DNA of 64,000 nt from SAR202 cluster bacterium AD-804-J14_MRT_500m (GTDB lineage: Bacteria > Chloroflexota > Dehalococcoidia > UBA3495 > GCA-2712585): positions 30,399-94,398 of the forward strand of contig VEXF01000002.1 in the NCBI GenBank assembly GCA_009391275.1, read 5' to 3'. The translations under genes and the position numbers were made by a program. The notes under the pieces are model-generated. The model was not told the origin of the DNA, searched no databases, and saw only the letters and a program-made list of their open reading frames with translations. Positions 2,387-22,420 of this stretch are shown one piece after another. The first letter of the stretch is position 1. Every line of letters starts with the position of its first letter.

Positions 2387-2530
2387 ATGCAAGCCTATTG
2401 TGTAAAGTGCCGCGAATCTCGCGAAATCAGTAATCCTCAGCAGATAACTATGAAGAATGGTAGACCTGCCACCCAGGGAACCTGCCCAACTTGTAGCACT
2501 AAGATGTTCCGTATCGGGAAAGCTTCATAA
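2387..2530 (+). CDS. DUF5679 small zinc-ribbon-like protein
   Basis: A 47-residue protein beginning MQAYCVKCRE and ending near MFRIGKAS. Two CxxC pairs (YCVKC and GTCPTC) suggest a small zinc ribbon, and the middle NGRPATQGTC matches what I recall of the DUF5679 family common in Chloroflexota. It starts at the ATG at 2387, preceded by ATAGGAG (2376-2382). It is a single gene between the MFS gene and the decarboxylase genes, followed by a strong hairpin. The function of the family is not known. Confidence 0.8.
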   Translation: MQAYCVKCRESREISNPQQITMKNGRPATQGTCPTCSTKMFRIGKAS

Positions 2531-2845: not shown

Positions 2846-3352
2846 ATGCAGTGGGCCACCACACTAGTTGACAGTCTAAAAAAAGCAAACATCTCCCTCA
2901 TAGCCTATGTCCCTGATGTTAGCATCTCAAAAGCTACGCGGCTGATGGAAGATGATCCTTACTTTCACGTGGTTTCCGCCACCAGAGAAGAAGAGGCGGT
3001 TGGAGTAGCGGTTGGTGCATATGCCGTGGGCCGCAGGGCGGCAGTGTTCATGCAATCCAGCGGATTTGGAAACTCAATCAACGCCCTTGCTAGTCTATGC
3101 ATTCCATGCCGTACGCCGGTGCCTATATTTATCAATCTAAGAGGTGAACTAGGCGAATTCAACTTGGCACAAGTTCCGATGGGCCGAGCTATCAAACCCA
3201 TACTTGACTCTTTAGGGCTTCCTCATTACACCCTAACCGATGAGAATAGATTAGGTACGATTATCGATGGTGCTATAGAGCTGTGTTACGCAGCCCGGCA
3301 ACCCGTCGGGCTTTGCATGACACCTCTTCTACACGGAGGCAAGCTTGCTTAG
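2846..3352 (+). CDS. TPP-dependent decarboxylase, alpha (PYR-domain) subunit, sulfopyruvate decarboxylase-like
   Basis: N-terminal half of a split thiamine-diphosphate decarboxylase resembling ComD of sulfopyruvate decarboxylase or the N-terminal half of phosphonopyruvate decarboxylase. About 168 residues from the ATG at 2846, chosen over an upstream in-frame start at 2789 because AAGG precedes it and the domain begins at once. The cofactor-activating Glu sits in REEEAVGVAVGAY, followed by MQSSGFGNSINAL, a hallmark of this subfamily. It overlaps the beta subunit by 8 nt, so the two should be translationally coupled. The substrate is a 2-oxo acid of unknown identity; sulfopyruvate is one candidate only. 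Confidence 0.85.
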   Translation: MQWATTLVDSLKKANISLIAYVPDVSISKATRLMEDDPYFHVVSATREEEAVGVAVGAYAVGRRAAVFMQSSGFGNSINALASLCIPCRTPVPIFINLRGELGEFNLAQVPMGRAIKPILDSLGLPHYTLTDENRLGTIIDGAIELCYAARQPVGLCMTPLLHGGKLA

Positions 3353-3950
3353 GATCGAAGGCATACGAATTGTCCTGCAGCATGCTGGCGAGAAACCTAT
3401 AGTTGGCAACCTAGGCCCGACCAGCGATGAACTCCAATCCCTGGGACATCGCGATCGTAATTTCTATACATATGGCTCTATGGGACTATGCTCTTCAATT
3501 GCGTTAGGCATGGCACTATCCACAGACCAACAGGTAATCTCTTTAGACGGGGACGGCTCTTTGCTCATGAATATGGGTACAATCGCCACCATCGGACGAG
3601 AGAGCCCGCCTAACCTCATCGTAGTCGTTTGGGATAATGAAGAGTGGTGTCAAACCGGCCATCAGCCGTCTCATACTGCTACGAGTACAGACTTGGAAAG
3701 TGTTGCAAAAAGCTGCGGTATCTCACAAACTGCCACAGTTACTAGCGAAGAACAATTCGAAACTATTTTGAAAAGCGCTCTTGACCAACCCGGTCCTTGG
3801 TTTATAGTGGCAAAAATTGATGAAGAAGGCCAACATATTGAAGCAGCACCGACCGAGCCTGAGTTAACCCTCCATAGATTCCGGCAATCTTTCGAACTGT
3901 CTTCCACGAATCCTCATACTCAGCCATGGCACAAACCTAGCGAGGATTAA
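3345..3950 (+). CDS. TPP-dependent decarboxylase, beta (PP-domain) subunit, sulfopyruvate decarboxylase-like
   Basis: ComE-like subunit that binds the diphosphate of TPP; 201 residues. The TPP/Mg motif begins GDGSLLMN and ends at WDNEEW, the expected GDG-x(about 25)-DN pattern. A YGSMGLCSSIALGMAL segment precedes it, as in sulfopyruvate and phosphonopyruvate decarboxylases. The start is TTG at 3345, supported by GGAGG at 3335-3339 with 5-nt spacing and by the 8-nt overlap with the alpha gene. The C-terminal 30 residues are polar and less family-like. The next gene is the first of four amidohydrolases, 105 nt on. Confidence 0.85.
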   Translation: MLRIEGIRIVLQHAGEKPIVGNLGPTSDELQSLGHRDRNFYTYGSMGLCSSIALGMALSTDQQVISLDGDGSLLMNMGTIATIGRESPPNLIVVVWDNEEWCQTGHQPSHTATSTDLESVAKSCGISQTATVTSEEQFETILKSALDQPGPWFIVAKIDEEGQHIEAAPTEPELTLHRFRQSFELSSTNPHTQPWHKPSED

Positions 3951-4055
3951 CTTTTCACCGAGTCTCCCACCGTGTGACGCCAGATTCTCGATTGCAACCG
4001 CTTTGATTGTAATGTACGATTCGCTGCCAAAATAAGCCTCCCTTAGGAGATCGAT

Positions 4056-5183
4056 ATGACAGGAACAAAAATTCTCTCATCCGACTCTCATATCTTAGAA
4101 CCACCCAACCTTTGGACAGAACGCATGGATCCCAAAACCTTCGGGGATCGCATACCACACCTCGTAAAAGGGGACCCATATGACCACTGGTCCGTTGACG
4201 GGGAACTTATGGGAGTAATAGGCACTTTCGGTACTCCAGGCCAACGCTTTGAAAATCCTGAGGAAATCAATCGAGAAGGGAAATACGAGACTATTCGACC
4301 GGGCGGATATGATCCGGAAGAACGGATGAAGGACCTTGCTCTCGACGGTGTATATGCAGACATCCTATACCCTTCCTTCGCTATGGAAATGTACGGGGTC
4401 CGTGATGCTAAATTGCTGGGATCCGTCTTCGCTACCTACAACGATTGGCTTAGCGAGTTTTGCGCTACATACCCTGACCGTCTCAAAGGAATAGCGATGA
4501 TCATTCTTGACGATGATATTCAGGGCGGTGTGTCAGAACTCCAGCGCACAACCAGATTAGGGTTGCCTGGAGCCATGATCAGCTCGTTTCCTCTCCCAGG
4601 AGACACTTACGACCACCCCAAATATGAACCTTTCTGGGCTGCTGCCGAAGAGTTGGATCTCCCAATAAGTCTCCATACCGCAACAAACAGACCAACTCCA
4701 CCAGCCGCTATTGTAGAGGATACCGTCATAAGCCAATCAGGGGCCGCTCGCGTCAACGCCGAATACTGGGTGCGCATGTCGCTTTGCCACATGGTCTATT
4801 CCGGAATTTTCGAACGATATCCAAACCTCCAGGTCGTGAACGTCGAGAACGACCTCGCTTGGTTACCATATTTCCTCAATCGCCTGGACGTTACCTACAT
4901 TGAACGCCCTACACAAACTACGTTCCGATTCAAAAACGATGCTCTTCCAAGTGATTTCATGAGCCGTAACGTTTATCACTCGTTCCAAGAAGATGCTCTT
5001 GGAGTACGCGATCGAGATATCATCGGCGTTGATAGACTACTCTGGGGCTCAGATTATCCCCATGCTGAATCCACCTTTCCGAAATCGCAAGAAATATTGG
5101 ATAGTATCCTAGAAGGCGTACCAGAAGACGAGAAGGCGTTGATAGTTGGGGGGAACACTGCAAAACTTTATAAAATAAGTTAA
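4056..5183 (+). CDS. amidohydrolase-2 family protein, paralogue A
   Basis: TIM-barrel metal-dependent hydrolase/decarboxylase of the Amidohydro_2 family (relatives: ACMSD, gamma-resorcylate decarboxylase); 375 residues. Likely metal ligands: SDSH followed by EPPNLW at the N-terminus, the His of ISLH, the His of SLCHM, and the Asp of WGSDYPH near the C-terminus. The start ATG follows TTAGGAGAT. It resembles paralogue B most: both share QSG-(A/G)-R-V-N-A-(E/D)-YWVRM and the VENDLAW segment. It could be a hydrolase or a non-oxidative decarboxylase of a ring-derived carboxylate; sequence does not decide. Confidence 0.85.
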   Translation: MTGTKILSSDSHILEPPNLWTERMDPKTFGDRIPHLVKGDPYDHWSVDGELMGVIGTFGTPGQRFENPEEINREGKYETIRPGGYDPEERMKDLALDGVYADILYPSFAMEMYGVRDAKLLGSVFATYNDWLSEFCATYPDRLKGIAMIILDDDIQGGVSELQRTTRLGLPGAMISSFPLPGDTYDHPKYEPFWAAAEELDLPISLHTATNRPTPPAAIVEDTVISQSGAARVNAEYWVRMSLCHMVYSGIFERYPNLQVVNVENDLAWLPYFLNRLDVTYIERPTQTTFRFKNDALPSDFMSRNVYHSFQEDALGVRDRDIIGVDRLLWGSDYPHAESTFPKSQEILDSILEGVPEDEKALIVGGNTAKLYKIS

Positions 5184-5267
5184 CCTGACTTATAACAATG
5201 ATATGCAGAATAATTGATCTAACGAATTCCTACTAGTTGTTAACTTTAAGTAGACCATATCCCCGTG

Positions 5268-5297
5268 TTAAAATCCCTGCCATAGCAGAGATTTTAA
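5268..5297. promoter_or_regulatory. 30-bp interrupted palindrome between amidohydrolases A and B
   Basis: TTAAAATC (5268-5275) pairs with GATTTTAA (5290-5297) and CTGC (5277-5280) with GCAG (5285-5288), around a CATA centre with one C/A mismatch. It lies in the 180-bp gap between paralogues A and B, the longest gap inside the amidohydrolase run. The AT-rich symmetrical form suits an operator for a dimeric regulator at an internal promoter. It could also be a weak terminator, but no T-tract follows. Confidence 0.45.
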
Positions 5298-5363
5298 GCT
5301 TGGAAACGCCCATCACTCTAAGTCTTATCAACCGATCAAAACAATAGCAACTGCGAGGATATT

Positions 5364-6500
5364 ATGAGCACTTTGAACGGCATAAAAGTAATCTCTTCAG
5401 ATTCTCACGTGTTAGAACCTCCAGATCTTTGGACCTCCCGGATGCACAGCAAATGGGGCGATCGAATACCCAAGGTCATAGCTGGACAAGATGCCGATCA
5501 CTGGGTAGTCGATGGTGAGGAGATGGGCATAATCGGGACATTTGGCGCTTCAGCCGGAATGCGCTTCGAAAATCCTGGAGACATCGTGCGGGAGGGTCGA
5601 TATGAGGACATTAGAAAAGGCGGGTTCGACCCACACGCCAGGATGGAAGACCTTCAATTAGATGGGGTTCATGCAGACTTTCTGTATCCGTCATTTGCCA
5701 TGGAAATGTATGCAATTCCAGACACTCAGCTTCTCCAAGGTATTTGCAGCGCATATAACGATTGGCTTATAGAATATTGCGCAGCGTACCCTGACAAACT
5801 CAAAGGGATCGCAATGATCGCCTTAGACGACGATATTGAAACTGGGATATCTGAGATCCGTCGTTGCGCAAACTTGGGGCTTGTCGGCGCAATGATCACA
5901 GTTTGGCCAAGACCCGGGGAAACCTATGATCACCCAATGTATGATCCTTTTTGGTCCACTGCGCAAGAACTAAACATCCCACTAAGTCTTCATCAAGTAA
6001 CTAACCGAAGTGTACCTAAAGCACCCGACGCCGATACAGTTGTGATATCACAATCAGGTGCTGGCCGAGTCAACGCCGACTATTGGGTGCGAATGTCTCT
6101 TTGCCACATGATCTATTCAGGCGTCTTCGAGCGCTACCCAGACCTTAACGTAATCAACGTAGAAAACGATTTGGCTTGGCTTCCGTATTTTATCAATCGA
6201 CTGGATGTCACATACATAGAGCGACCCACCCAAACCGCGTATCGCTTCAAGGACGGCGTTCTCCCAAGCGACATTATGCGTAGGAATGTTCACCACTCTT
6301 TTCAAGAAGACGGCATAGGAATCCGAGATCGCGACATAATTGGAGTTGAAACACTGATGTGGGGGTCAGACTATCCACATGCTGAGTCCACTTTCCCTAA
6401 ATCCAGAGAAATTCTTGATAGCATCCTTGAGGGCGTCTCAGAAGAGGAAAAAGCGATGATTGTCGGAGGAAACTGTGCCAAACTCTATAACTTAGAATGA
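5364..6500 (+). CDS. amidohydrolase-2 family protein, paralogue B
   Basis: Second tandem Amidohydro_2 protein, 378 residues, closest to paralogue A. It keeps the SDSHV-x-EPPDLW opening, the LSLH and SLCHM histidines and the WGSDYPHAESTFPKS segment. The start ATG follows TGCGAGGATATT. Differences from A gather in the loop after LSLH (HQVTNRSVPK against HTATNRPTPP), the region expected to touch substrate. That suggests duplication with shifted specificity rather than a simple dosage increase. It is separated from C by 52 nt. Confidence 0.85.
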   Translation: MSTLNGIKVISSDSHVLEPPDLWTSRMHSKWGDRIPKVIAGQDADHWVVDGEEMGIIGTFGASAGMRFENPGDIVREGRYEDIRKGGFDPHARMEDLQLDGVHADFLYPSFAMEMYAIPDTQLLQGICSAYNDWLIEYCAAYPDKLKGIAMIALDDDIETGISEIRRCANLGLVGAMITVWPRPGETYDHPMYDPFWSTAQELNIPLSLHQVTNRSVPKAPDADTVVISQSGAGRVNADYWVRMSLCHMIYSGVFERYPDLNVINVENDLAWLPYFINRLDVTYIERPTQTAYRFKDGVLPSDIMRRNVHHSFQEDGIGIRDRDIIGVETLMWGSDYPHAESTFPKSREILDSILEGVSEEEKAMIVGGNCAKLYNLE

Positions 6501-6552
6501 TTATCTTGCCAGTTCCCGTCAATTCAACCATCTACTCTACAGGAGGCTTCTA

Positions 6553-7692
6553 ATGGCCGACCAATTGGTAATCTCGTCTGATTCACATGTTGTAGAACCA
6601 CCTAACCTTTGGATCGATAGAATGGATCCAAAATTTTCAGACCGCATACCTCACCTTGAAAAAGGCGATCCTTTCGATCAGTGGTTTTGCGACGCCCATC
6701 CCATTAGCACCCTGGGAGCTTTTTCAGCAGCCGGCAAGCGTTTCTCCGCACCGCAAACGATAGATTTAGACGGACGATTTGATGATGTGCCCGCAGGAGG
6801 ATACGACCCCACAGCGCACATCAACGATCTGGCTATAGACGGTGTGTACGCAGACGTCCTGTATCCATCTATAGGTTTGGGTCTCTTCGGTATTCCTGAT
6901 CCAGTTCTCATTAGTAATGTTTTTTCAGCTTACAACGACTGGTTATCCGAATTTTGTTCCGCATATCCCGACCGTCTTAAGGGTGTTGCCATGATCTTGG
7001 CAGAACCCAGCAATATAGAGACCTCAGTTGCCGAACTCAGGCGTTGTACCGAAATTGGATTAGTGGGTGCAATGATTAGCGTATATCCATCGCCCGGCAT
7101 GTATTACGACTCGCCGTCTTATGATCCTTTCTGGGCAGCTGCCCAAGAATTAAACATGCCGGTCAGCCTCCACGTCTCTACTAATCGCCCGGGATCTGTA
7201 GAACACAACATTGACGCAGGTAAACCCAGTCAATCTGGCGCCGACAGATCAAACAGTGACCACTGGGTAAGGATGTCACTGAGCCACTTAGTCTTGGGGG
7301 GGGTTTTTGAGCGATTTCCAGACCTTAAAGTGATTAATGTAGAACATGAATTATCTTGGATGCTCTACTGGATCCAACGTATGGATCTCACCTACATAGA
7401 GCGAACCACCCAGACACCCCATCGTTTCAAAAATGACATGCTCCCCAGTGATTTCGTAAGACGAAATATATATCACTCTTTCCAAGAAGACTCTATAGGC
7501 ATACAGTTTCGTGACATGATCGGTGTTGACAACCTTATGTGGGCTTCCGACTATCCCCATGCCGAAGCTACCTTTCCAGAATCTCAACGAATCCTTTCAG
7601 AAATTCTCGAAGGTGTCCCGCAAAAAGAACGCGATCAAATCGTAGGAGGAAACTGTGCACGCATGTATGGGTTTTCTTTTAACGGAAGTTGA
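6553..7692 (+). CDS. amidohydrolase-2 family protein, paralogue C
   Basis: Third tandem Amidohydro_2 protein, 379 residues, forming a pair with paralogue D. It has SDSHVVEPPNLW at the start, VSLH, LSHL and WASDYPHAEATFPES. The A/B signature VENDLAW is VEHELSW here, and the A/B LCHM is LSHL, so the pairs differ in second-shell or active-site positions. The start ATG follows CAGGAGGCTTCTA, a strong SD. No signal peptide. The reaction is unknown within the hydrolase/decarboxylase range of the family. Confidence 0.85.
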   Translation: MADQLVISSDSHVVEPPNLWIDRMDPKFSDRIPHLEKGDPFDQWFCDAHPISTLGAFSAAGKRFSAPQTIDLDGRFDDVPAGGYDPTAHINDLAIDGVYADVLYPSIGLGLFGIPDPVLISNVFSAYNDWLSEFCSAYPDRLKGVAMILAEPSNIETSVAELRRCTEIGLVGAMISVYPSPGMYYDSPSYDPFWAAAQELNMPVSLHVSTNRPGSVEHNIDAGKPSQSGADRSNSDHWVRMSLSHLVLGGVFERFPDLKVINVEHELSWMLYWIQRMDLTYIERTTQTPHRFKNDMLPSDFVRRNIYHSFQEDSIGIQFRDMIGVDNLMWASDYPHAEATFPESQRILSEILEGVPQKERDQIVGGNCARMYGFSFNGS

Positions 7693-7755
7693 ACCAATCA
7701 ACTAACCAGATTCATTACAGTTCAAACCATCAACTTAACCCACTGGAGGAATCAC

Positions 7756-8889
7756 GTGACTAGTCCCCTAATCATTTCTTCTGACTCACACGTAGTAGAA
7801 CCACCAAATCTCTGGACTGATCGTATGGACACCAGATTCGGAGACGGAATTCCGCATCTAGAGCATGACGAGCCTTACGACCAGTGGTATTGCAAAGGGC
7901 AAGGGGTCAGCACATTAGGTGCGTTTACATCAGCGGGAAAACGTTTCTCCAAGCCCGAAACTATAAATTTGGAAGGTAGTTTCGCCGAAGTACCCCCAGG
8001 TGGATATGATCCTGATGCTCACGTCAAAGACTTGGCCATAGATGGGGTGCATGCCGATGTCCTTTATCCCTCGGTAAGCCTCGGCCTCTATGGAATAAAC
8101 GATACTAACCTTCTTCGTCCTATATTAAGTGCATACAATGACTGGCTTGCAGAATTTTGTGGGAGCCACCCAAAGGTTCTAAAAGGCATCGCTGCAATTC
8201 TTTTAGAGGACGATATTCCCGCGGGTATCGCCGAGATGAAACGCGCAGCTGGGAAGGGCCTGTCCGGGGCAATGATCAGTGTATATCCTGGTCAAGGATA
8301 TTTTTATGACGAGCCTATGTATGACCCATTCTGGGCCGCCGCTCAAGAGTTAAACATGCCCATAAGCCTCCATGTTGGCACTGGTCGATTGGGGAGAGCA
8401 CAGTTAGTAGAAGATGGTAAAATTGTCCAAACAGGCGCCGACAGATCAAACAGCGATCATTGGGTTAGAATGTCTCTGAGCCACCTAGTCCTCGGTGGTG
8501 TTTTCGAACGATTCCCGGACTTAAAAATCATAAATGTTGAACACGAGCTCGCATGGATGCTGTACTGGCTCAATCGTATGGATATGACATACGTCGAACG
8601 AACTACGCAAGCTACCTATCGTTTCTCATCGGACATGCTCCCAAGTGACTTCGTGCGACGGAATATCTATCACGCCTTCCAAGAGGACGCTATCGGTATT
8701 CAGCATCGAGACATGATAGGTGTCACACAGCTGCTTTGGGCCTCAGATTATCCCCATGCCGAAGCTACCTTTCCGGAATCTCAACGAATCCTTTCAGAAA
8801 TCCTAGAAGGTGTACCACAAGACGAACAAGATCTCATTGTTGGCGGCAACTGCGCCAGAATGTATGGGTTTGATTCCGACATCAAGTGA
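7756..8889 (+). CDS. amidohydrolase-2 family protein, paralogue D
   Basis: Fourth tandem Amidohydro_2 protein, 377 residues, nearest to paralogue C. Both share QSG/QTG-ADRSNSDHWVRMSL, the VEHEL segment and the tail IVGGNCARMYGF. The start is GTG at 7756 preceded by TGGAGGAATCAC, a strong SD. The family metal ligands are present (SDSH, ISLH, LSHL, WASDYPH). At 7758-7840 and 8740-8800 the DNA is very close to C, so the C/D duplication looks more recent than the split from A/B, or the pair has undergone gene conversion. Confidence 0.85.
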   Translation: MTSPLIISSDSHVVEPPNLWTDRMDTRFGDGIPHLEHDEPYDQWYCKGQGVSTLGAFTSAGKRFSKPETINLEGSFAEVPPGGYDPDAHVKDLAIDGVHADVLYPSVSLGLYGINDTNLLRPILSAYNDWLAEFCGSHPKVLKGIAAILLEDDIPAGIAEMKRAAGKGLSGAMISVYPGQGYFYDEPMYDPFWAAAQELNMPISLHVGTGRLGRAQLVEDGKIVQTGADRSNSDHWVRMSLSHLVLGGVFERFPDLKIINVEHELAWMLYWLNRMDMTYVERTTQATYRFSSDMLPSDFVRRNIYHAFQEDAIGIQHRDMIGVTQLLWASDYPHAEATFPESQRILSEILEGVPQDEQDLIVGGNCARMYGFDSDIK

Positions 8890-8986
8890 CCTACTTCACT
8901 AACGATCCAGAGCTAACCATCACGTTGTACAAGCCTATGCCCAACGTGATGTTGACCTTACCAGGTTAAATCTAAGGAGGACATAC

Positions 8987-9889
8987 ATGGCTAATTTCAA
9001 AGGAGTATTCCCTGCAATTATCACACCGTTCGACCACCAGGGAGAACTTAACGTTGATGCTTTCCGACAAGTCATGGAGTCCAACATACAAGCCGGAGCC
9101 AACGGCTTCTGGATTTGCGGTGGGACCGGAGAAAGCGTGTATCTCACATCTGACGAAATTAGCAGGGTAGCCGAAGCTTCGGTAGATCAATCCGGAGGCC
9201 GGGCAACCACAATTGTTCATGTCGGATCAACTACTACCAGTCAGGCAGTCCGAAATGCCAAAGCATCCGCAAATGCGGGCGCGGATGCCATATGCTGCGT
9301 GCCACCATTCTTCTATGGTCCCTCGGAACAATCTCTAGTGGACTTCTACAAAACGGTTGTAGATGCTGCCGACGGACTTCCTCTTTTCGTTTACAACCTC
9401 CCACAGTCAACCGGCACCGAAATAACATCCGACATAATGGAAACTTTGGTACGGGAAATTCCAGAACTAAAAGGCGTAAAGCACTCCGCACCAAATTTTG
9501 AAAATATCCGGAATTTCGCCTCCTTAGGCATATCTGTTTTTAGTGGCAATGGATATATGTTGCTAGCAGCACTCTGCAACGGAGCAATAGGTGGAATAGA
9601 TGGACCATTAAACATAGCTCCACAACTCTGGGTTGAGGTTTACAACCATTTCCAATCAGGGGACATCCAACGAGCCATGGACGCCCAGGAGCGCGCAAAC
9701 AAACTAATGGACCTCACGAGAAGCTCCTTGTTCCCTGCAGTATTTAAACACCTAGTAGGTGAACAAGTAGGTGTTGACTGCGGCGACCCACGGCCACCTC
9801 TTCCCGCGTTATCCAAAGCAGCCGCACAAGAACTATCCCAAAAGGCAGATTCGCTTGGGTTACTACCAAAACCAGCCGCCGTTCGCTAA
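8987..9889 (+). CDS. dihydrodipicolinate synthase / N-acetylneuraminate lyase family aldolase
   Basis: Class I (Schiff-base) TIM-barrel aldolase or dehydratase of 300 residues, the normal family length. Pyruvate-binding GGTGES stands where GTTGE is usual. The catalytic Tyr is in VYNLPQSTG and the Schiff-base Lys in GVKHSAP. The start ATG follows TAAGGAGGACATAC, a strong SD. It sits in a catabolic run, not with lysine genes, so I read it as a degradative aldolase or dehydratase (as in sugar-acid or aromatic side-chain pathways) rather than DapA. It may form or cleave a 2-oxo acid handled by the TPP decarboxylase; that link is inference. Confidence 0.85.
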   Translation: MANFKGVFPAIITPFDHQGELNVDAFRQVMESNIQAGANGFWICGGTGESVYLTSDEISRVAEASVDQSGGRATTIVHVGSTTTSQAVRNAKASANAGADAICCVPPFFYGPSEQSLVDFYKTVVDAADGLPLFVYNLPQSTGTEITSDIMETLVREIPELKGVKHSAPNFENIRNFASLGISVFSGNGYMLLAALCNGAIGGIDGPLNIAPQLWVEVYNHFQSGDIQRAMDAQERANKLMDLTRSSLFPAVFKHLVGEQVGVDCGDPRPPLPALSKAAAQELSQKADSLGLLPKPAAVR

Positions 9890-9907
9890 TATTCCACAAT
9901 AAAGTTC

Positions 9908-10366
9908 ATGAAACGAGAAGACCTCGAAAACTGGATCCAAACTCAAACTGATATCAGGGATATTGAGAACCTAAAGGGGCGTTATGCCGCGTTCTGTGAC
10001 GACGGCTATAACCCAGACGGCATAGCATCGCTCTTCACCAGTGACGGCGTGTGGGAAGCACCATGGCAAGGCAGATTCGAAGGGCGGGAAGAGATAAAAT
10101 CATTCTTCCAACGGGTCTCTGGAACCATCACATTCTCGATCCACGGCGTGGTTAACCCTGTGATCAACGTGAACGGAAATTCTGCTGACGGGAGATGGTA
10201 CTTGTTCCAGCCTTGCATAATTAACGGAGAGGCTTACTGGGTATCAGGAAAATATTTGGATGAATATTCTAAAATTAATGGCGAATGGTTTTTTAAATCT
10301 CTAAAAGTATCTTCCTTCTTTCGTGCACCGTTCGCTTCCGGTTGGAACTGCAAGCCACTCGGTTGA
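9908..10366 (+). CDS. SnoaL-like (NTF2-fold) protein, copy 1
   Basis: 152-residue NTF2-fold protein of the SnoaL-like group, which includes dehydratases, isomerases and small subunits of ring-hydroxylating enzymes. An N-terminal helix with IENLKGRYAAFCDDGY leads to FTSDGVWEA, the usual strand with an acidic residue of this fold. It begins 18 nt after the aldolase stop. It is a tandem paralogue of the next gene: both carry NLKGRY-x-AFCDDGYN-x-DGIASLF and a C-terminal FKSL/FKNL motif. Catalytic role unknown. Confidence 0.8.
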   Translation: MKREDLENWIQTQTDIRDIENLKGRYAAFCDDGYNPDGIASLFTSDGVWEAPWQGRFEGREEIKSFFQRVSGTITFSIHGVVNPVINVNGNSADGRWYLFQPCIINGEAYWVSGKYLDEYSKINGEWFFKSLKVSSFFRAPFASGWNCKPLG

Positions 10367-10464
10367 AACATACTTTTGATAGATCTGAGCCTGGACCCGA
10401 ATCCTCGGCGCCTGAATATATGAGTTGCCTCGCTACACAATAACCATCCCAATAAGGAGCCAAC

Positions 10465-10929
10465 ATGACTGACCTAGATCTCGCTGCTAAAATTCAACGC
10501 CTAGATGATATCGAAGCCATCCGGAATCTTAAGGGCAGATATTGCGCTTTTTGCGACGACGGCTATAATGCCGATGGCATAGCTAGTTTGTTCGTTGAAG
10601 ACGGAATATGGGACGGTGGGATACGGGGGAAATACGACGGCCGTGAAGCCATCCGGTCTTTTTTCACCACCGGCACTAGCCGTATTACATTCGCAGTCCA
10701 CAATGTTCTCAACCCTATCATCGAAGTCAACGGTGACACCGCCCACGCGAGCTGGTATCTATTTCAACCCTGCACAGAAGCCGGACAAGCCTATTGGGTA
10801 TCAGGCGTATACCAAGATGATTACGTAAAAGTAAATGGCCAATGGTTCTTCAAGAATCTTCAAGTGACTTTTAATTTCTGGACACCTTTCGAACAGGGTT
10901 GGGCCAAGCAACCTTTCCCCAACCCATAA
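10465..10929 (+). CDS. SnoaL-like (NTF2-fold) protein, copy 2
   Basis: 154-residue paralogue of the preceding gene with the same NLKGRYCAFCDDGYN opening, a DGIWDGG strand and the YWVSG-x-Y segment. The start ATG follows ATAAGGAGCCAAC, a good SD. It is the last plus-strand gene of the cluster and converges on the DUF35 gene 59 nt away. Two tandem NTF2-fold proteins could form a heteromer or act on successive intermediates. No further function can be read from sequence. Confidence 0.8.
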   Translation: MTDLDLAAKIQRLDDIEAIRNLKGRYCAFCDDGYNADGIASLFVEDGIWDGGIRGKYDGREAIRSFFTTGTSRITFAVHNVLNPIIEVNGDTAHASWYLFQPCTEAGQAYWVSGVYQDDYVKVNGQWFFKNLQVTFNFWTPFEQGWAKQPFPNP

Positions 10930-10988: not shown

Positions 10989-11327
10989 CTACAGGGAGAG
11001 AGAAGACATATTCTCAACGAATATACCTTCCTCATCATTGGGTTCGCTGCAAATCACTCTCACACCCGTCCTTATATTGTCCCCCTTTTTCAATCGTCCT
11101 ATCAACCTCGGCCCTTCGTCGAGTTGCACTAAGACCACCGTATAAGGGACGTCGTCGGCAAAACGGTCCGGAGCTACGTAGATAGTAGTGCTGGTAAGTA
11201 CAATTCCTTCCCCAAGGACTTCTGCCAACCCAATCACTGCGTTGCCACAGTTAAAGCACATCGGGATTTTAAACAGATACGTTGAGTCACAATCGTTGCA
11301 TCGGTAACCGTGAAGCATCCCAGCCAT
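10989..11327 (-). CDS. DUF35 / OB-fold acyl-CoA-associated zinc-ribbon protein
   Basis: 112-residue protein with an N-terminal rubredoxin-like zinc ribbon (YRCNDCDS and MCFNCGN, Cys at 10, 13, 24, 27) followed by an OB-fold with the PYTVVLVQLDEGPRLIG strand pattern of the DUF35 family. In archaea and many bacteria DUF35 proteins partner a thiolase of the SCP2/acetoacetyl-CoA type and help channel acyl-CoA. Here it lies 3 nt downstream of such a thiolase, the typical arrangement. It is the last gene of the minus-strand CoA operon. Confidence 0.85.
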   Translation of the reverse strand: MAGMLHGYRCNDCDSTYLFKIPMCFNCGNAVIGLAEVLGEGIVLTSTTIYVAPDRFADDVPYTVVLVQLDEGPRLIGRLKKGDNIRTGVRVICSEPNDEEGIFVENMSSLSL

Positions 11328-11330
11328 ATA

Positions 11331-12539
11331 TCAATTCTTACCCAGAATGTGAACCGTGGCGACTGCTCCAGAACCACCTAAATTATGGGCTAATCCCACA
11401 TCTGCTTTCCTAACTTGATTGGATGCAGTGCCCCTAATCTGTTGCACCAGTTCATATATCTGCGCCAACCCGGTAGCTCCGACGGGATGTCCTTTGGCTA
11501 TAAGACCCCCACTCGGATTCACCGGTAATTTCCCTGCCAACTGGGTCAACCCTTCGTATACGGCTGGACCACCTTGCCCCTTGTCAAAAAACCCCAAGTC
11601 CTCTGTAGCAACAATTTCAGCTATAGTAAAACAATCATGTACTTCCGCAAAATCTATTTCACTTGCTTTTAATCCAGCCATACCGAACGCCTCTTGCGCA
11701 GCTTTTACAGAAGCTGGAAAAGTTGTGAGATCCTCCATCTGGGACAACTGGGCTGGCCCTGAAGCGTGCCCTGATCCAAGCACCTTGACGGGTTGGCTGT
11801 TAAACTGAGATGCGATTTCCAATGGGCACAATACTGCAGCCGCTGCACCATCGCTTATAGGTGGGCAGTCAAAGAGTCGAATAGGATCTGCAACAAATCG
11901 CGACGTCATCACCTCTTCTAAATCTGTCTGTTTCCTGAATTGTGCTTTTTCATTCGTAACACCGTTACCATGATTTTTTACTGAAACCATGGCAATTTGT
12001 TCCCGCGTCGTACCCCACTTGAACATATGTTGTTCCATTATCATAGCGAATGCGCCGGGGAATGTGAGTCCACTACGCATTTCTAGGATCTCATCCCCAG
12101 CAGTCGATAATGCAGCCGTAATCTCCCCTGTACCGACACCCGTCATTTTCTCTGTCCCAACGACCAGCACAAAATCATACAACCCCGCTGCTACAGTCAG
12201 GTACCCGTGCCTAAATGCTATACCTGCGGACGCGCAGGCTCCTTCTACCTTAGTAGCGGGTATGCCAGTAATCCCCAACCTCCCAGCTACCATAGGTGCC
12301 AACGCTCCCTGATTAGAAAGACGTTCCGACGCAAAGTTCCCAAGATACAACGCTTGGATCAATTCTGGCGCAATATACCCATCAAGCATTGCCTGTTGAC
12401 ACGCTTCAACAGCTATAGATACGACATCTTGTCCATCCAAACGGCCAAATCCCGTAGACCCCACTCCAACTACCGCAACCGGACGCAAGTTCGGACGGCT
12501 CAGATTAAAACCATAATCTTCCACACTTACCTTGCCCAT
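11331..12539 (-). CDS. thiolase family protein (SCP2-type acetyl-CoA acetyltransferase-like)
   Basis: 402 residues. The nucleophile Cys102 is in VEGACASAG and the C-terminal NPSGGLIAKGHPVGATG carries the catalytic His; HDCFTIAE holds the usual second active-site segment of this subfamily. The ATG immediately follows the TAG stop of the acyl-CoA synthetase gene (12540 onward), implying translational coupling. Paired with a DUF35 partner, it would cleave or form 3-oxoacyl-CoA or an acetoacetyl-CoA analogue in the cytosol, closing a beta-oxidation-like route with the acyl-CoA synthetase and enoyl-CoA hydratase nearby. Confidence 0.88.
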   Translation of the reverse strand: MGKVSVEDYGFNLSRPNLRPVAVVGVGSTGFGRLDGQDVVSIAVEACQQAMLDGYIAPELIQALYLGNFASERLSNQGALAPMVAGRLGITGIPATKVEGACASAGIAFRHGYLTVAAGLYDFVLVVGTEKMTGVGTGEITAALSTAGDEILEMRSGLTFPGAFAMIMEQHMFKWGTTREQIAMVSVKNHGNGVTNEKAQFRKQTDLEEVMTSRFVADPIRLFDCPPISDGAAAAVLCPLEIASQFNSQPVKVLGSGHASGPAQLSQMEDLTTFPASVKAAQEAFGMAGLKASEIDFAEVHDCFTIAEIVATEDLGFFDKGQGGPAVYEGLTQLAGKLPVNPSGGLIAKGHPVGATGLAQIYELVQQIRGTASNQVRKADVGLAHNLGGSGAVATVHILGKN

Positions 12540-14099
12540 CTATATGTTCCTTTCCCTCTTTGTCCAATATGGTTTTCGAAGGTCATTTTTTTCTACTTTT
12601 CCGTAAGCATTTTTCGGCAAAGTCTCATGAAAATCAATAGATTGAGGCTTTTTATAGCTTGCCATGTTCAGCCTGCAAAAATCTATGATTTCTTGTTCCG
12701 TTGCCTGAGCATCAGACGACAATACCAAAGCTGCCTTGACAGACTCACCCCAGACTGCGTCGGGCACTCCGAATACTGACACCTCGGCCACCGACGGATG
12801 GCGAGCAATTACTTCTTCTACTTCGCGTGGATAAATGTTCGCTCCTCCGCTGATAATCATGTCATTCTTCCTATCAGTTATGAACAAATACCCTTTTTCA
12901 TCCAAGTGGCCTAAATCACCGGTGTGTAACCACCCATTCCTGAGCGTCTCTGATGTGGCTAGAGGGTTGTTGAGATACCCACTCATGACTAGATCGCTTT
13001 TGACTCCAATCTCACCTGTGACCCCAACTTCAAGTTCGTGGTCGTATTCATCTAAAATTGCAACGCGTACACCAGTTACCTCTCTGCCCGCTGACCCGAG
13101 GCGGATGAGGCGGTCTGGATCATCTTCAATCACGTGTTCTTCCTTGGGCAAGGTTGTGATAGTCATGGGAGCTTCTCCTTGCCCGAAGATTTGTACGAAT
13201 ATATTTCCAAATATTTTTATAGCTTGCAACATGTGTTCCGTATACATGGGTCCACCCCCATACACGACTGTATGTAAGCTGGACAGGTCATATTTATCTT
13301 TTGACTCACTCGCTACAAGCATGTTAATCATAGTTGGGGCCATAAACATCGTGGTCACCCTATAACGTTCGATGGCATCGAAAATCAGAGGCGGATCGAA
13401 TCGCCGGGTTCCCGGAAAAGCGTTCGCGGCGCCACGGGCTATGTGGTGGAACATGCTTAATCCCGACCCATGAGTGATCGGTGCCGCATGTAACAATACA
13501 TCTTCGGGTTTAGCGGGGTTAATATCAGTCAAAAATGCTTGAGCCATAGATAGAAGGTTTCTGTGCGAAAGCATCGCGCCCTTAGGTTGTCCAGTTGTAC
13601 CTGATGTAGAGAATATCCAAGCCAGGTCTTCCGGGTTAATAGAAACATTTGGGGCATTTTGGATCGACGAAGATAGCAAATCTTCATACTCTAGGGACCC
13701 ATGCCCATGGGCCCCTAGACAGATATAATGTTCGAGTTTCGGCAGTGCAGATTTAATCGCATCTACCTCGCTACTGAAGTCACCACCGTACACTAACCCG
13801 GTAGCGTCTGTATTGTTTAACAAATACTGAATCTCTTTAACATGGAGACGTGCATTCATAGGAACAATCGCCATCCCAACTTTCATAGAAGCAAGGATCG
13901 TCTCTAATCCTTCGTAACAATTGTTTACCAACAACCCTACTCTCTGCCCTTGCTTCATTCCTAAATCAATCAGTCCATTAGCTAATCGGTTAACGCGCGC
14001 TTCAGCTTCATTAAATGAAATAACCGTTCCGTCTTGAATCCATGCTGGCCTTTCAGGCCACCTACGAGCTGCCCTAGTGAGGATGTCTCCTACGCGCAC
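12540..14099 (-). CDS. acyl-CoA synthetase (AMP-forming), class I adenylate-forming enzyme
   Basis: 519 residues. The ATP/AMP signature STSGTTGQPKGAMLSH lies near residues 163-178, followed by the adenine-binding FGQGEAP, the hinge TGDLGHLDEKGYLFITDRKNDMI and the C-terminal catalytic Lys in NAYGKVEK. It activates a carboxylic acid to acyl-CoA. The start is GTG at 14099 with GGAGG six nt upstream. It is followed directly by thiolase. The substrate (aliphatic, aryl or ring-cleavage acid) cannot be set. It is the entry step of the minus-strand CoA module. Confidence 0.9.
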   Translation of the reverse strand: MRVGDILTRAARRWPERPAWIQDGTVISFNEAEARVNRLANGLIDLGMKQGQRVGLLVNNCYEGLETILASMKVGMAIVPMNARLHVKEIQYLLNNTDATGLVYGGDFSSEVDAIKSALPKLEHYICLGAHGHGSLEYEDLLSSSIQNAPNVSINPEDLAWIFSTSGTTGQPKGAMLSHRNLLSMAQAFLTDINPAKPEDVLLHAAPITHGSGLSMFHHIARGAANAFPGTRRFDPPLIFDAIERYRVTTMFMAPTMINMLVASESKDKYDLSSLHTVVYGGGPMYTEHMLQAIKIFGNIFVQIFGQGEAPMTITTLPKEEHVIEDDPDRLIRLGSAGREVTGVRVAILDEYDHELEVGVTGEIGVKSDLVMSGYLNNPLATSETLRNGWLHTGDLGHLDEKGYLFITDRKNDMIISGGANIYPREVEEVIARHPSVAEVSVFGVPDAVWGESVKAALVLSSDAQATEQEIIDFCRLNMASYKKPQSIDFHETLPKNAYGKVEKNDLRKPYWTKRERNI

Positions 14100-14169
14100 G
14101 TTTGTCCTCCCTTATGGTCACTTCTGTAAATTTCTAAACTCAGGTCATGCCGTAATTCCCAGTTCATGC

Positions 14170-14601
14170 TTATGCGTTTTCACTGCCGGAATTGCTAGCC
14201 TTTGTAGACATCACCAATTGAGTTTGGGTAACCACAGCGGCCGTTTTGCCATCTCCCCTTATTACATTAGTCTGCCAAACCATCGTCGTCCGCCCCAAAT
14301 GTAAAGGTATACACACTCCTTTAACTCTGTCTCCCTCTGGAATTCCTGCTATGAAATTCGTCTTACTTTCTATAGTGGTGGTGGCAGCACCCTGAGGGAT
14401 ATTTGCCATAGTTCCGATCGCACCCAAGGTGTCGGCCAGGGACATCACCGCTCCACCATGCATTATGCCTGTACCTGTAGTAAGGTCATTCGTCACATCT
14501 AACACCCCTATTACACAATCCAGTGTAGTACTGATTAATTTCAACCCTAAAGTCTGTGCGAAAGGAATTGATTCGATAGCTGAGTTTGCATTGGTTTGCA
14601 T
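14170..14601 (-). CDS. PaaI-like hotdog-fold thioesterase
   Basis: 143 residues with the hotdog signature GTGIMHGGAVMSLADTLGAIG, which contains the HGG and the acidic active-site residue of the PaaI/YdiI thioesterase family. It hydrolyses acyl- or aryl-CoA, often to release dead-end thioesters. The start ATG has AAGGAA five nt upstream. It is 70 nt upstream of the acyl-CoA synthetase and probably in the same unit. Confidence 0.82.
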   Translation of the reverse strand: MQTNANSAIESIPFAQTLGLKLISTTLDCVIGVLDVTNDLTTGTGIMHGGAVMSLADTLGAIGTMANIPQGAATTTIESKTNFIAGIPEGDRVKGVCIPLHLGRTTMVWQTNVIRGDGKTAAVVTQTQLVMSTKASNSGSENA

Positions 14602-14649
14602 GAACGTTCCTTCATTCCAGTTTCAATTTGTTCAAATACTTTTTCAGTC

Positions 14650-14671
14650 TCTATACCTACAGGGGTATAGA
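14650..14671. terminator. 8-bp perfect hairpin between enoyl-CoA hydratase and thioesterase genes
   Basis: TCTATACC (14650-14657) and GGTATAGA (14664-14671) form an exact 8-bp stem with a 6-nt loop. It lies 40 nt past the enoyl-CoA hydratase stop on the minus strand. No clear T-tract follows. It may be a processing or attenuation hairpin splitting the hydratase from the downstream CoA genes. Confidence 0.4.
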
Positions 14672-14710
14672 AATAACTTCTTTACTCCAATGAAACTTGG
14701 ATTCGTAGTG

Positions 14711-15517
14711 TCAGTTTGTTTCTAAATTAGTTTTCTTCGTTCCGGTAAATCTGCGGACAGTCTCTTTAGTTTTATCTGACGAAAATACCTTGGCATACCA
14801 GTCTTTTTCTATTTCAAACCCTTCTTTCAAAGGAACCTTTAAACCATTCCGCACAGACATTTTAATAGCTGTAATTGCCAAAGGTGATTTCGTCATTAAT
14901 TTTTGACAGAACCCGATAGTAACTTTTAATGCGGTATCCTGATCAACGACTTTCGTTAACAACCCCAATGACATAGCTTCATCCGCAGATACTAACTCTC
15001 CTGTTACCAACAGTTCCATCGCTCTTGTTGGACCGATTATCCGTGACAAGCGTTGAGTTCCACCCCAACCTGGTATAATCCCTAGGTCTACTTCCGGACT
15101 TCCAAAGGTTGACATGCGACCAGCTATCTTAAAGTCACATGCCATCATCAATTCGAATCCGCCCCCCACACATGTCCCTTCAGTTACTGCGATCATAGGT
15201 TTTGGCGACGCCTCGATAGCATCACACAAGCCCTGCCCTAACCCTACAAAGTCTCGACATTCGGAATGTTCCATGGTGACCATCTCTTTAATATCCGCAC
15301 CAGCACTATATATCACTTTTAGTGCACTCGAAATAATCACTACCCGAGATGACACATCGTCACTCAGTTCCCTAACAGTCTCCGTAAGTTCCTTTACTAG
15401 GCTACGGTCCAATGCATTCACTGGTGGACGGTTCAACTGAACCAACGCTAAGCCATTGTCTACGCTCACATTTAAAAAAGACGTTGCCAACTTACCTCCA
15501 AGGGTTAGGTGAGACAA
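14711..15517 (-). CDS. enoyl-CoA hydratase/isomerase family protein
   Basis: 268-residue crotonase-fold protein. The oxyanion-hole segments are SAGADIKEM (residues 70-78) and CVGGGFELMMACDF (about 120-133). The glutamate of PEVDLGIIPGWGGTQRL matches the catalytic Glu of true hydratases. It would hydrate 2-enoyl-CoA, or isomerise in some relatives. The first possible start is TTG at 15517 with a weak SD; a slightly later start is possible because the first 12 residues are poorly conserved. It lies upstream of the thioesterase, synthetase and thiolase genes on the same strand. Confidence 0.88.
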   Translation of the reverse strand: MSHLTLGGKLATSFLNVSVDNGLALVQLNRPPVNALDRSLVKELTETVRELSDDVSSRVVIISSALKVIYSAGADIKEMVTMEHSECRDFVGLGQGLCDAIEASPKPMIAVTEGTCVGGGFELMMACDFKIAGRMSTFGSPEVDLGIIPGWGGTQRLSRIIGPTRAMELLVTGELVSADEAMSLGLLTKVVDQDTALKVTIGFCQKLMTKSPLAITAIKMSVRNGLKVPLKEGFEIEKDWYAKVFSSDKTKETVRRFTGTKKTNLETN

Positions 15518-21142: not shown

Positions 21143-22234
21143 TTAGTCATGACTGCCCAATTTATATATTCGGGTGGCTGTGTCATGAAACAAAGCTGCT
21201 CTTTCTTCATCCGAGTACCCTTTAGATAAACGTTTGAAGGCGTTGTACATCACATTGTAGGAGTACGAAATTTTATCTACAGGGAAATTACTCTCAAACA
21301 TACTCCTGTTGGGGCCAAACTTATCAATACAATAGTCCATAAGCGGGGCCATAGCATCAGCTAACTCTTCGGATCCAATCGGTTCGGAACGCGCGTGCCA
21401 ATCAAACCCTGTTTGCGGCATACCAATGCCGCCAAGCTTGATAGTGACATTTGGGCATTCCGCTAACCTGGTAATCCCACTCCGCCAGGTCGTCATTACC
21501 TCATCTTCTCTATTTGCATAGGGACCGATTCTCATTAATCCACCTATGTGGTTTAACACTATGGACAAGTCGGGTACACAATTCGCAAAATCAGCTAATT
21601 CTGCCATCTGATGAAAATAAAGCCACGCTTCTAGAGACAATCCCATACGTGACAGAACCCTCGCACCTGCTCGAAATTCGTCATTGGCAAGTTGTCCTTC
21701 TAATCTAATAGCGGCAGTATTTTCAATTTCAGGGTTAGGATCCCACGTAACAGAATGTCGAATACCCCGGAACCGATTTGGACTCGCAACCTGTAATGCT
21801 TCTAGAACAGGTTCAACCTGGTCACCTAAATTAAGGTTTGCCCGGCCCACTATGCCAGCCGCTGCTCGACAATCACCGTACAGACCGCTGGCGCTGGCAG
21901 CAGCAAGTCCTTGTACAAATTCTACCTCACCAACCGACCGCATCTCCTCGGATCCCTCGGCCCTATACATTGCCCTTGCTTCAACAAACACGGTTGACCG
22001 AACGTTATGTCCGCTACTGACATCCTCTATTAATTCGTGCAAAAGATATCGCTGGTACGGTATTCGTTGAATTCTAAAATCCCAAAAGTGATGATGCGGG
22101 TCACAGATCGGAATCTCCGGCTCTAATGCCGGTTCTTGTGTCAAATTAAGCCAGTCAGGACCTCCGAATGGCATGGTATAGCCTCCTACCTTAATGTCAT
22201 CACCCCAATCATAACTCCTCCGCGTTCTATTCAT
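21143..22234 (-). CDS. amidohydrolase (COG3618-like TIM-barrel metal-dependent hydrolase)
   Basis: About 363 residues. Opens with CDPHHHFWD, the His-x-His metal motif of the lactonase/dicarboxylate-hydrolase-like Amidohydro_2 group. It also has LNHIGG and the ending MFESNFPVDK, which replaces the SDYP motif and is normal for this subfamily. The preceding SD is weak. It differs clearly from the four tandem paralogues at 4-9 kb. Flanked by acetamidase upstream and ggt downstream on the same strand. Likely hydrolyses a lactone or cyclic amide; this is inference from the family. Confidence 0.82.
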   Translation of the reverse strand: MNRTRRSYDWGDDIKVGGYTMPFGGPDWLNLTQEPALEPEIPICDPHHHFWDFRIQRIPYQRYLLHELIEDVSSGHNVRSTVFVEARAMYRAEGSEEMRSVGEVEFVQGLAAASASGLYGDCRAAAGIVGRANLNLGDQVEPVLEALQVASPNRFRGIRHSVTWDPNPEIENTAAIRLEGQLANDEFRAGARVLSRMGLSLEAWLYFHQMAELADFANCVPDLSIVLNHIGGLMRIGPYANREDEVMTTWRSGITRLAECPNVTIKLGGIGMPQTGFDWHARSEPIGSEELADAMAPLMDYCIDKFGPNRSMFESNFPVDKISYSYNVMYNAFKRLSKGYSDEERAALFHDTATRIYKLGSHD

Positions 22235-22420
22235 CAAAACGCGGCAACGGTTTACTGGTGAATTAAAGGTCGTGCCTTAAAAACTCGGGCCGACATCGAG
22301 AGACGAGCAATCGATTCTACCGTCATTGCCATCACGATACTAGATATGCCAATAACTCCTAATTAGCTGCCAACTACCCCAAACCGATCGTGATCTTTGC
22401 GCTTTAACCAACTGCATAAC

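Follow-up and report, generated by a model that had tools for sequence, protein, structure and literature searches.

Amidohydrolase-related dinuclear oxygenases (AROs), among them PtmU3, AibH2 and SfbO, are PF04909 TIM barrels in which a dinuclear Fe/Fe or Mn/Fe centre uses O2 and electrons to hydroxylate C-H bonds. The class has been defined only recently and few of its members are characterised. According to excerpts of PMC10811679, the dinuclear PF04909 enzymes (AibH2, PtmU3, SfbO and three candidates) are monooxygenases or redox-active diiron sites, and the remaining characterised PF04909 enzymes are mononuclear or metal-free. Details of PtmU3, a monooxygenase of platensimycin/platencin biosynthesis (PDB 6omp), were taken from excerpts of PMC7782822, PMC10401708 and PMC10811679; a literature search returned no paper on DitZ from Rhodococcus rhodochrous (PDB 8uyr) or on TruffO.

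The locus compared here with these enzymes lies in a window of 64,000 nucleotides, the whole stretch of SAR202 DNA that was analysed. Nine ORFs follow one another on the plus strand at positions 2846-10929, and their family matches (E-values from 1.7e-8 to 6.9e-60) confirmed the genes and families named in the preliminary description. TPPa (2846..3352; PF02776, TPP_enzyme_N, E 1.7e-8) overlaps by 8 bases with TPPb (3345..3950; PF02775, TPP_enzyme_C, E 1.3e-21), which has a TTG start. Four Amidohydro_2 (PF04909) genes encoding predicted AROs come next: AH1 (4056..5183), AH2 (5364..6500), AH3 (6553..7692) and AH4 (7756..8889, GTG start). The series ends with a DHDPS-superfamily class I aldolase/dehydratase (8987..9889; PF00701, E 6.9e-60) and two SnoaL_4/NTF2-fold proteins, the candidate lyase or dehydratase SnoA (9908..10366; PF13577, E 7e-24) and SnoB (10465..10929), which is 55% identical to SnoA. 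From TPPa to SnoB, the successive intergenic gaps measured -8, 105, 180, 52, 63, 97, 18 and 98 bases. Inspection by eye placed AGGAG/GGAGG-type Shine-Dalgarno sequences upstream of six of the nine genes (TPPb, AH1, AH3, AH4, DHDPS and SnoB), in line with the previous remark that most genes had their own; the sequence was weak at TPPa and AH2, and none was seen at SnoA. A scan for promoter- and terminator-like sites found them no more often at the locus than in shuffled sequences, so that it was uninformative and neither supported nor contradicted co-transcription of the nine genes.

When the four barrels were aligned to PtmU3 and DitZ, each of them presented D10, H12, H207, E264, D333 and H336 together with an acidic residue, E338. 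The first six are equivalent to the AibH2 ligands D25, H27, H211, E265, D337 and H340, as listed in an excerpt of PMC7782822. The glutamate occupying the position of AibH2 D342 and PtmU3 E313 was found in all four window proteins and in 43 out of 43 aligned sequences, which are close homologues by selection. AH1-AH4 also have the PF04909 TIM barrel that characterises AROs. PtmU3, which carries all seven signature residues with Glu at the acidic position, was their best sequence match (E 9.7e-48) and tied for best fold match, and DitZ, which shares the fold and the six ligands and has Asp at the acidic position, was with it one of the two closest relatives of known structure by both sequence (E 9.7e-37) and fold. 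Taken together, these alignments make it likely that AH1-AH4 are AROs, that is, predicted dinuclear oxygenases. The four proteins were 54-71% identical to one another, and a tree from which one long G001 protein (at least 560 aa) was omitted grouped AH1 with AH2 and AH3 with AH4 as sisters. Beyond the window, an AH1 homologue (P0102) reached 84% identity, and viral contigs contained one relative with 28% identity.

The barrels had previously been likened to ACMSD and gamma-resorcylate decarboxylase, and both enzymes, as well as LigW, do share superfamily and fold with AH1-AH4. Mononuclear Zn/Mn hydrolysis or non-oxidative decarboxylation of this kind is nevertheless very unlikely, since the barrels carry dinuclear oxygenase ligands and matched PtmU3 and DitZ far more strongly. 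LigW, the sole decarboxylase compared residue by residue, lacked the signature, and so did 14 out of 15 control PF04909 proteins, which were the best-scoring of 17 and 41 matches in two genomes (G003 and G004), a choice that favours canonical members. LigW and these 14 controls have a beta-6 His and no D-x-x-H, where AH1-AH4 have Glu and D-Y-P-H-x-E. ACMSD/LigW-type chemistry was accordingly considered improbable, as both the ligand residues and the two best relatives point elsewhere. When relatives were searched with a profile of the window proteins, with no more than 33 candidates scored in each genome, G004 had 11 matching genes, so that its lower-scoring PF04909 genes probably include AROs. 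A dinuclear centre might alternatively serve to hydrolyse substrates such as CoA thioesters, lactones or amides with no O2 activation. Hydrolysis is the reaction of most amidohydrolase-superfamily enzymes (in an excerpt of PMC7782822), no Rieske partner was found nearby, and amidase-, peptidase- and transporter-like genes, named by eye from the starts of their sequences, recur close to the paralogues; yet the known dinuclear PF04909 enzymes are the monooxygenases and redox-active diiron sites cited above, and we judge this alternative unlikely.

The electron donor bears on the same choice. Among the window ORFs, those at least 60 aa long contained no Rieske motif, and two relatives with 43 and 29 PF04909 genes had 3 and 1 Rieske domains; in G001, one small Rieske frame and one ARO are about 4 kb apart. 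We found no dedicated electron donor. In the 2.5 kb around each of 66 placed ARO-like genes, the commonest neighbour clusters were solute-binding-protein-like, as judged by eye (near 15 genes), and further PF04909 genes (near 14). An adjacent small Rieske ferredoxin, with 90% co-occurrence, belongs to the AibH2-like ARO branch (PMC10401708). AH1-AH4, which have no such neighbour in the window, are not assigned to this branch; AROs overall are not defined by this feature.

The two genes preceding the barrels are predicted to encode a split ComDE-like TPP-dependent 2-oxoacid decarboxylase, with TPPa as the alpha subunit (N-terminal TPP-binding domain) and TPPb as the beta subunit (C-terminal TPP-binding domain). 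Both motifs of the TPP-dependent decarboxylase superfamily, one Glu-containing in the N-domain and the other GDGS...N in the C-domain, were present, and we take 'TREEEA' at residue 46 of TPPa and GDGS...DN at residue 69 of TPPb to fill these roles. ComDE sulfopyruvate decarboxylase is likewise a two-subunit split TPP enzyme with TPP-type motifs in common. The window pair nonetheless fell short of the NCBIfam equivalog cut-offs for sulfopyruvate as well as phosphonopyruvate decarboxylase. In the sulfopyruvate decarboxylase comparison, TPPa reached 136.9 bits against TIGR03845 (cut-off 147.95) and TPPb 169.7 bits against TIGR03846 (cut-off 221.5). The best PDB match of TPPb was 9iz3_B, the putative beta subunit of a phosphonopyruvate decarboxylase. 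TPPa orthologues of 46-78% identity were detected in 27 out of 60 relatives of G001.

Comparison of the related loci showed which part of the gene series is shared. The two-subunit decarboxylase anticipated by the preliminary description was borne out, and in six out of 27 related loci (G001, G002, G005, G006, G007 and G009) it is followed by one to five ARO-type barrels, whereas the remaining 21 carry the TPP pair with no barrels. Three of the six contigs (G005, G006 and G009) stop inside a barrel. At the three loci readable past the barrels (G001, G002 and G007), the DHDPS, SnoaL and CoA-operon genes had no match, and the window MFS gene was unmatched at all six as far as the contigs reach. 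The expectation of conserved synteny held for the TPP pair with tandem barrels and found no support, in the three readable loci, for the DHDPS gene, the SnoaL genes and the CoA operon. Because these genes do not follow the barrels there, the single nine-gene pathway proposed earlier is so far unsupported, and so is their inclusion in a conserved module.

In two distant relatives, L207 and L208, a DHDPS homologue precedes the TPP pair and is accompanied by other genes than those of the window; in a third relative, L200, one lies about 6 kb upstream of the pair. The window protein contains the motifs GGTGES, YNLP and GVKHS and scored under the equivalog cut-offs of DapA, NanA and KdgD, which leaves it with superfamily membership only; presumably it acts on a 2-oxo acid. 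SnoA homologues were present in 17 out of 294 genomes at E 1e-15 and in 37 out of 250 at E 1e-20, one of them (P0019) being 69% identical. A SnoaL locus, L242, contained an acyl-CoA synthetase match.

It is quite possible, if not the view we favour, that there is no functional island here and that genes of unrelated pathways adjoin by chance or through lineage-specific rearrangement, a question of gene linkage and not of barrel identity. The unmatched DHDPS, SnoaL and CoA-operon genes and the 21 barrel-free TPP pairs argue for it, as do six SnoaL loci from five other genomes, some cut by contig ends, that had no matched TPP, DHDPS or PF04909 neighbour. Homologues of AH1 (84%), AH2 (83%) and SnoA (69%), known from homologue lists and not from gene order, lie on 667201-base contig(s) that probably represent one relative, which speaks for linkage; no DHDPS homologue on such a contig was among the 120 matches listed. 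The recurrence of the TPP pair with one to five barrels in six genomes also argues for linkage, as does a SnoaL homologue about 9.4 kb past the barrels in G007.

The signature extends well beyond the locus. It was complete in 36 out of 43 and 26 out of 29 PF04909 proteins of two related single-contig genomes, and in 14 out of 20 sampled from the 74 of a Binatia genome (G520) and 15 out of 19 sampled from the 58 of an Acidimicrobiia genome (G523), both samples being hand-picked from the better-scoring listed matches. FMNO-type matches numbered only 16 in G001 and 12 in G002, and each genome had one enolase-type match, that of G002 lying under the cut-off. In the five SAR202 papers that were searched by keyword, no report of this ARO-type expansion was found. 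COG3618 is, we presume, a PF04909-related lactonase family and not AROs. Its expansion has been described in SAR202 group I (PMC10444878). Excerpts of PMC6123686 describe a SAR202 genome in which ring-decarboxylases and 'numerous metal-dependent hydrolases' cluster with enzymes that modify rings; some of these hydrolases and decarboxylases could be AROs.

On our best reading the locus is oxidative and catabolic, its predicted core consisting of a ComDE-like 2-oxoacid decarboxylase and, next to it, a tandem array of C-H monooxygenases with a dinuclear Fe/Fe or Mn/Fe centre. AH1-AH4 would bind two metals and carry out O2-dependent hydroxylation of organic acids or their CoA esters that may differ among the paralogues, and the TPP pair would decarboxylate a 2-oxo acid derived from the hydroxylated product. 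Hydroxylated or 2-oxo intermediates could be handled by the DHDPS aldolase and both NTF2-fold proteins, but the module shared with relatives, where these are readable, does not include them. This pathway order is much less certain than the ARO identity of the barrels. A more speculative and less probable extension is that a SAR202 lineage with no large FMNO or enolase expansions depends instead on C-H monooxygenases that use Mn/Fe or Fe/Fe, are present in dozens under amidohydrolase annotations and draw on one common electron donor of a non-Rieske type, and that the locus is a hydroxylation-then-decarboxylation module for related acids. If the signature holds, tens of O2-dependent C-H hydroxylases per genome would be hidden under hydrolase labels in an uncultured lineage. 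This would alter what is predicted about the breakdown of recalcitrant dissolved organic matter by SAR202-type bacteria and would tie that chemistry to the supply of Mn and Fe. The seven-residue test could also be used for re-annotation of PF04909.

Compared with known systems, the FMNO, enolase and ring-hydroxylating dioxygenase expansions of SAR202 (PMC6946804, PMC10444878) are likewise large per-genome catabolic families, but of a different enzyme family. PtmU3 is 28% identical to the window barrels and belongs to a biosynthetic cluster, in contrast to the tandem genes of this SAR202-type genome and their predicted substrates, and DitZ is 26% identical. The Mn/Fe 2-aminoisobutyrate hydroxylase AibH1H2 is 19% identical and has its partners, the ferredoxin AibG and the reductase AibF, encoded alongside, and AibH1 lacks the acidic residue that is present in all four window proteins. 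AH1-AH4 nonetheless share the six ligands with AibH2, and AibH1H2 resembles the predicted system in its catabolic setting and its two adjacent PF04909 genes.

The preliminary description had placed nine genes on the plus strand at positions 2846..10929, encoding a split ComDE-like TPP decarboxylase (TPPa and TPPb), a DHDPS-family protein, four tandem amidohydrolases (AH1 to AH4) and two SnoaL-like, NTF2-fold proteins (SnoA and SnoB). ORF calls and a Pfam search confirmed both positions and families, with the amidohydrolases as PF04909 barrels. The TPP subunit genes overlapped by 8 bases and the remaining intergenic gaps measured 18-180 bases; strong Shine-Dalgarno sites were seen by eye upstream of six of the nine, in agreement with the claim that most genes had their own. 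The interval that separates the TPP genes from the MFS gene contained a 47-residue open frame with two zinc-ribbon-like C-x-x-C pairs (2387-2530, plus strand) and a perfect inverted repeat of 17 bases with a 13-base loop and no T-run after it (2565-2611). A convergent CoA-type operon (10989-15517, minus strand) started 60 bases past the end of SnoB and, as read by eye, encoded zinc-ribbon/OB-like, thiolase, acyl-CoA synthetase, hotdog and enoyl-CoA hydratase proteins. Further along, the window encoded another amidohydrolase-like protein (21143-22237, minus strand) with the pattern H-H-?-H-N-V-K, without the ligands of amidohydrolase-related dinuclear oxygenases (AROs), and a 1309-residue protein (32733-36662, plus strand) with long near-identical internal repeats, noted by eye.

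For comparison we used, among others, two single-contig Dehalococcoidia MAG chromosomes, G001 (OX638324.1, locus L001) and G002 (OY282371.1, locus L002); the window IleRS was 66% and 67% identical to theirs, respectively, and 64% identical to that of G007. These relatives suggest that the window is SAR202-type. Of 60 G001 relatives, 27 had a TPPa orthologue (46-78% identity), and the neighbourhoods of all 27 loci were examined. TPPb lay beside TPPa in every one. The synteny anticipated for the island recurred in part: the TPP pair was followed by a same-strand barrel of the AH1-AH4 clade in 6 of 27 loci, with two barrels in G001, one in G002 and five in G007, and, on contigs ending inside a barrel, at least one in G005 and in G009 and three, the last one cut, in G006 (locus L005). 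At the other 21 loci no barrel of this clade was matched beside the pair. Downstream gene content was readable in G001, G002 and G007, and in these loci the DHDPS, SnoaL, CoA-operon and MFS genes of the window had no match at E 1e-3; a SnoaL homologue of G007 lay about 9.4 kb past the last barrel. Beyond the barrels, G001 carried ArgE, RidA, GGT, FmdA, sulfite-oxidase-like, AKR and AmaB homologues in the same order as further along the window, while in G002 this run was inverted, and so the adjacency of TPP genes and barrels may partly reflect colinearity. In two distant relatives (L207 and L208) the decarboxylase had other neighbours, with names given by eye: a DHDPS homologue preceded the TPP pair together with an SDR-like gene, and aminotransferase-like and amidase-like genes followed it.

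In the tree, AH1 and AH2 were sisters (support 100/99), as were AH3 and AH4 (100/100), and all four fell within a 19-row clade that also held the TPP-adjacent barrels of relatives. Homologues 84% identical to AH1 and 83% identical to AH2 apparently occurred in one relative, and for this reason the AH1/AH2 duplication probably predates the split from it. On the printed tree, 27 of 29 G002 rows had a G001 row as sister, indicating that most of the expansion is older than the G001/G002 split. The placement of PtmU3, an ARO, and of DitZ, a protein of the same fold, was unsure because of long branches.

This expansion was rich in the full ARO signature, namely six metal ligands (D10, H12, H207, E264, D333 and H336) and an acidic seventh residue (E338). 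Specifically, 36 of 43 PF04909 proteins in G001 (44 Pfam matches falling in 43 genes) carried it and 40 had all six ligands, as compared to 26 and 28 of 29 in G002. Among the 15 best-scoring PF04909 proteins of the controls G003 and G004, only one had the full signature; in each of the 14 others His occupied the site of the Glu and the residue three positions past the Asp was not His, and an H-H-H-H-D pattern was present in 10. The full set also appeared in 14 of 20 sampled proteins (of 74) from a Binatia genome and 15 of 19 (of 58) from an Acidimicrobiia genome. Searched with a profile built from AH1-AH4, 17 of 60 G001 relatives gave matches at E 1e-30 or better, with a maximum of at least 33 per genome. 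FMNO or enolase expansions are described for SAR202 groups III and I in passages of PMC6946804 and PMC10444878. FMNO-type matches were few (16 in G001, 12 in G002) and enolase-type matches numbered one in each, so that neither genome shows those expansions.

We take COG3618 to be a PF04909-related lactonase family. It forms an expanded set in SAR202 group I according to a passage of PMC10444878, and a passage of PMC6123686 describes metal-dependent hydrolases clustered with ring-modifying enzymes. Keyword searches of main texts gave no occurrence of COG2159 in PMC6946804 (whose heatmap could hold such a row), PMC10444878, PMC11245477 and PMC5395668, nor of PF04909 in PMC10444878 and PMC11245477. 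An ARO expansion in SAR202 was mentioned neither in the keyword passages of the main texts nor in titles and abstracts on SAR202 amidohydrolases, COG2159, TIM-barrel or metal-dependent hydrolases, Chloroflexi PF04909 monooxygenases or AROs.

The signature, the fold and the position of barrels next to the TPP pair are established, and AH1-AH4 would most likely catalyse C-H hydroxylation of organic acids or the corresponding CoA esters, where we infer the substrates, O2 use and the metal. The TPP pair would most likely decarboxylate a 2-oxo acid downstream of the hydroxylation, in a putative order of steps. A search for an electron donor found no Rieske motif in window ORFs of 60 aa or more, and only three Rieske domains occurred in G001 and one in G002. 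The legend in PMC10401708 counts 555 AibH2-like proteins, including Chloroflexi members. Tandem pairs of a full-signature protein and a partner without the acidic residue were found at L165 in G001 (2026110/2025284) and at L176 in G002 (362867/364026), and these pairs, with one member devoid of the acidic seventh residue, recall AibH2/AibH1.
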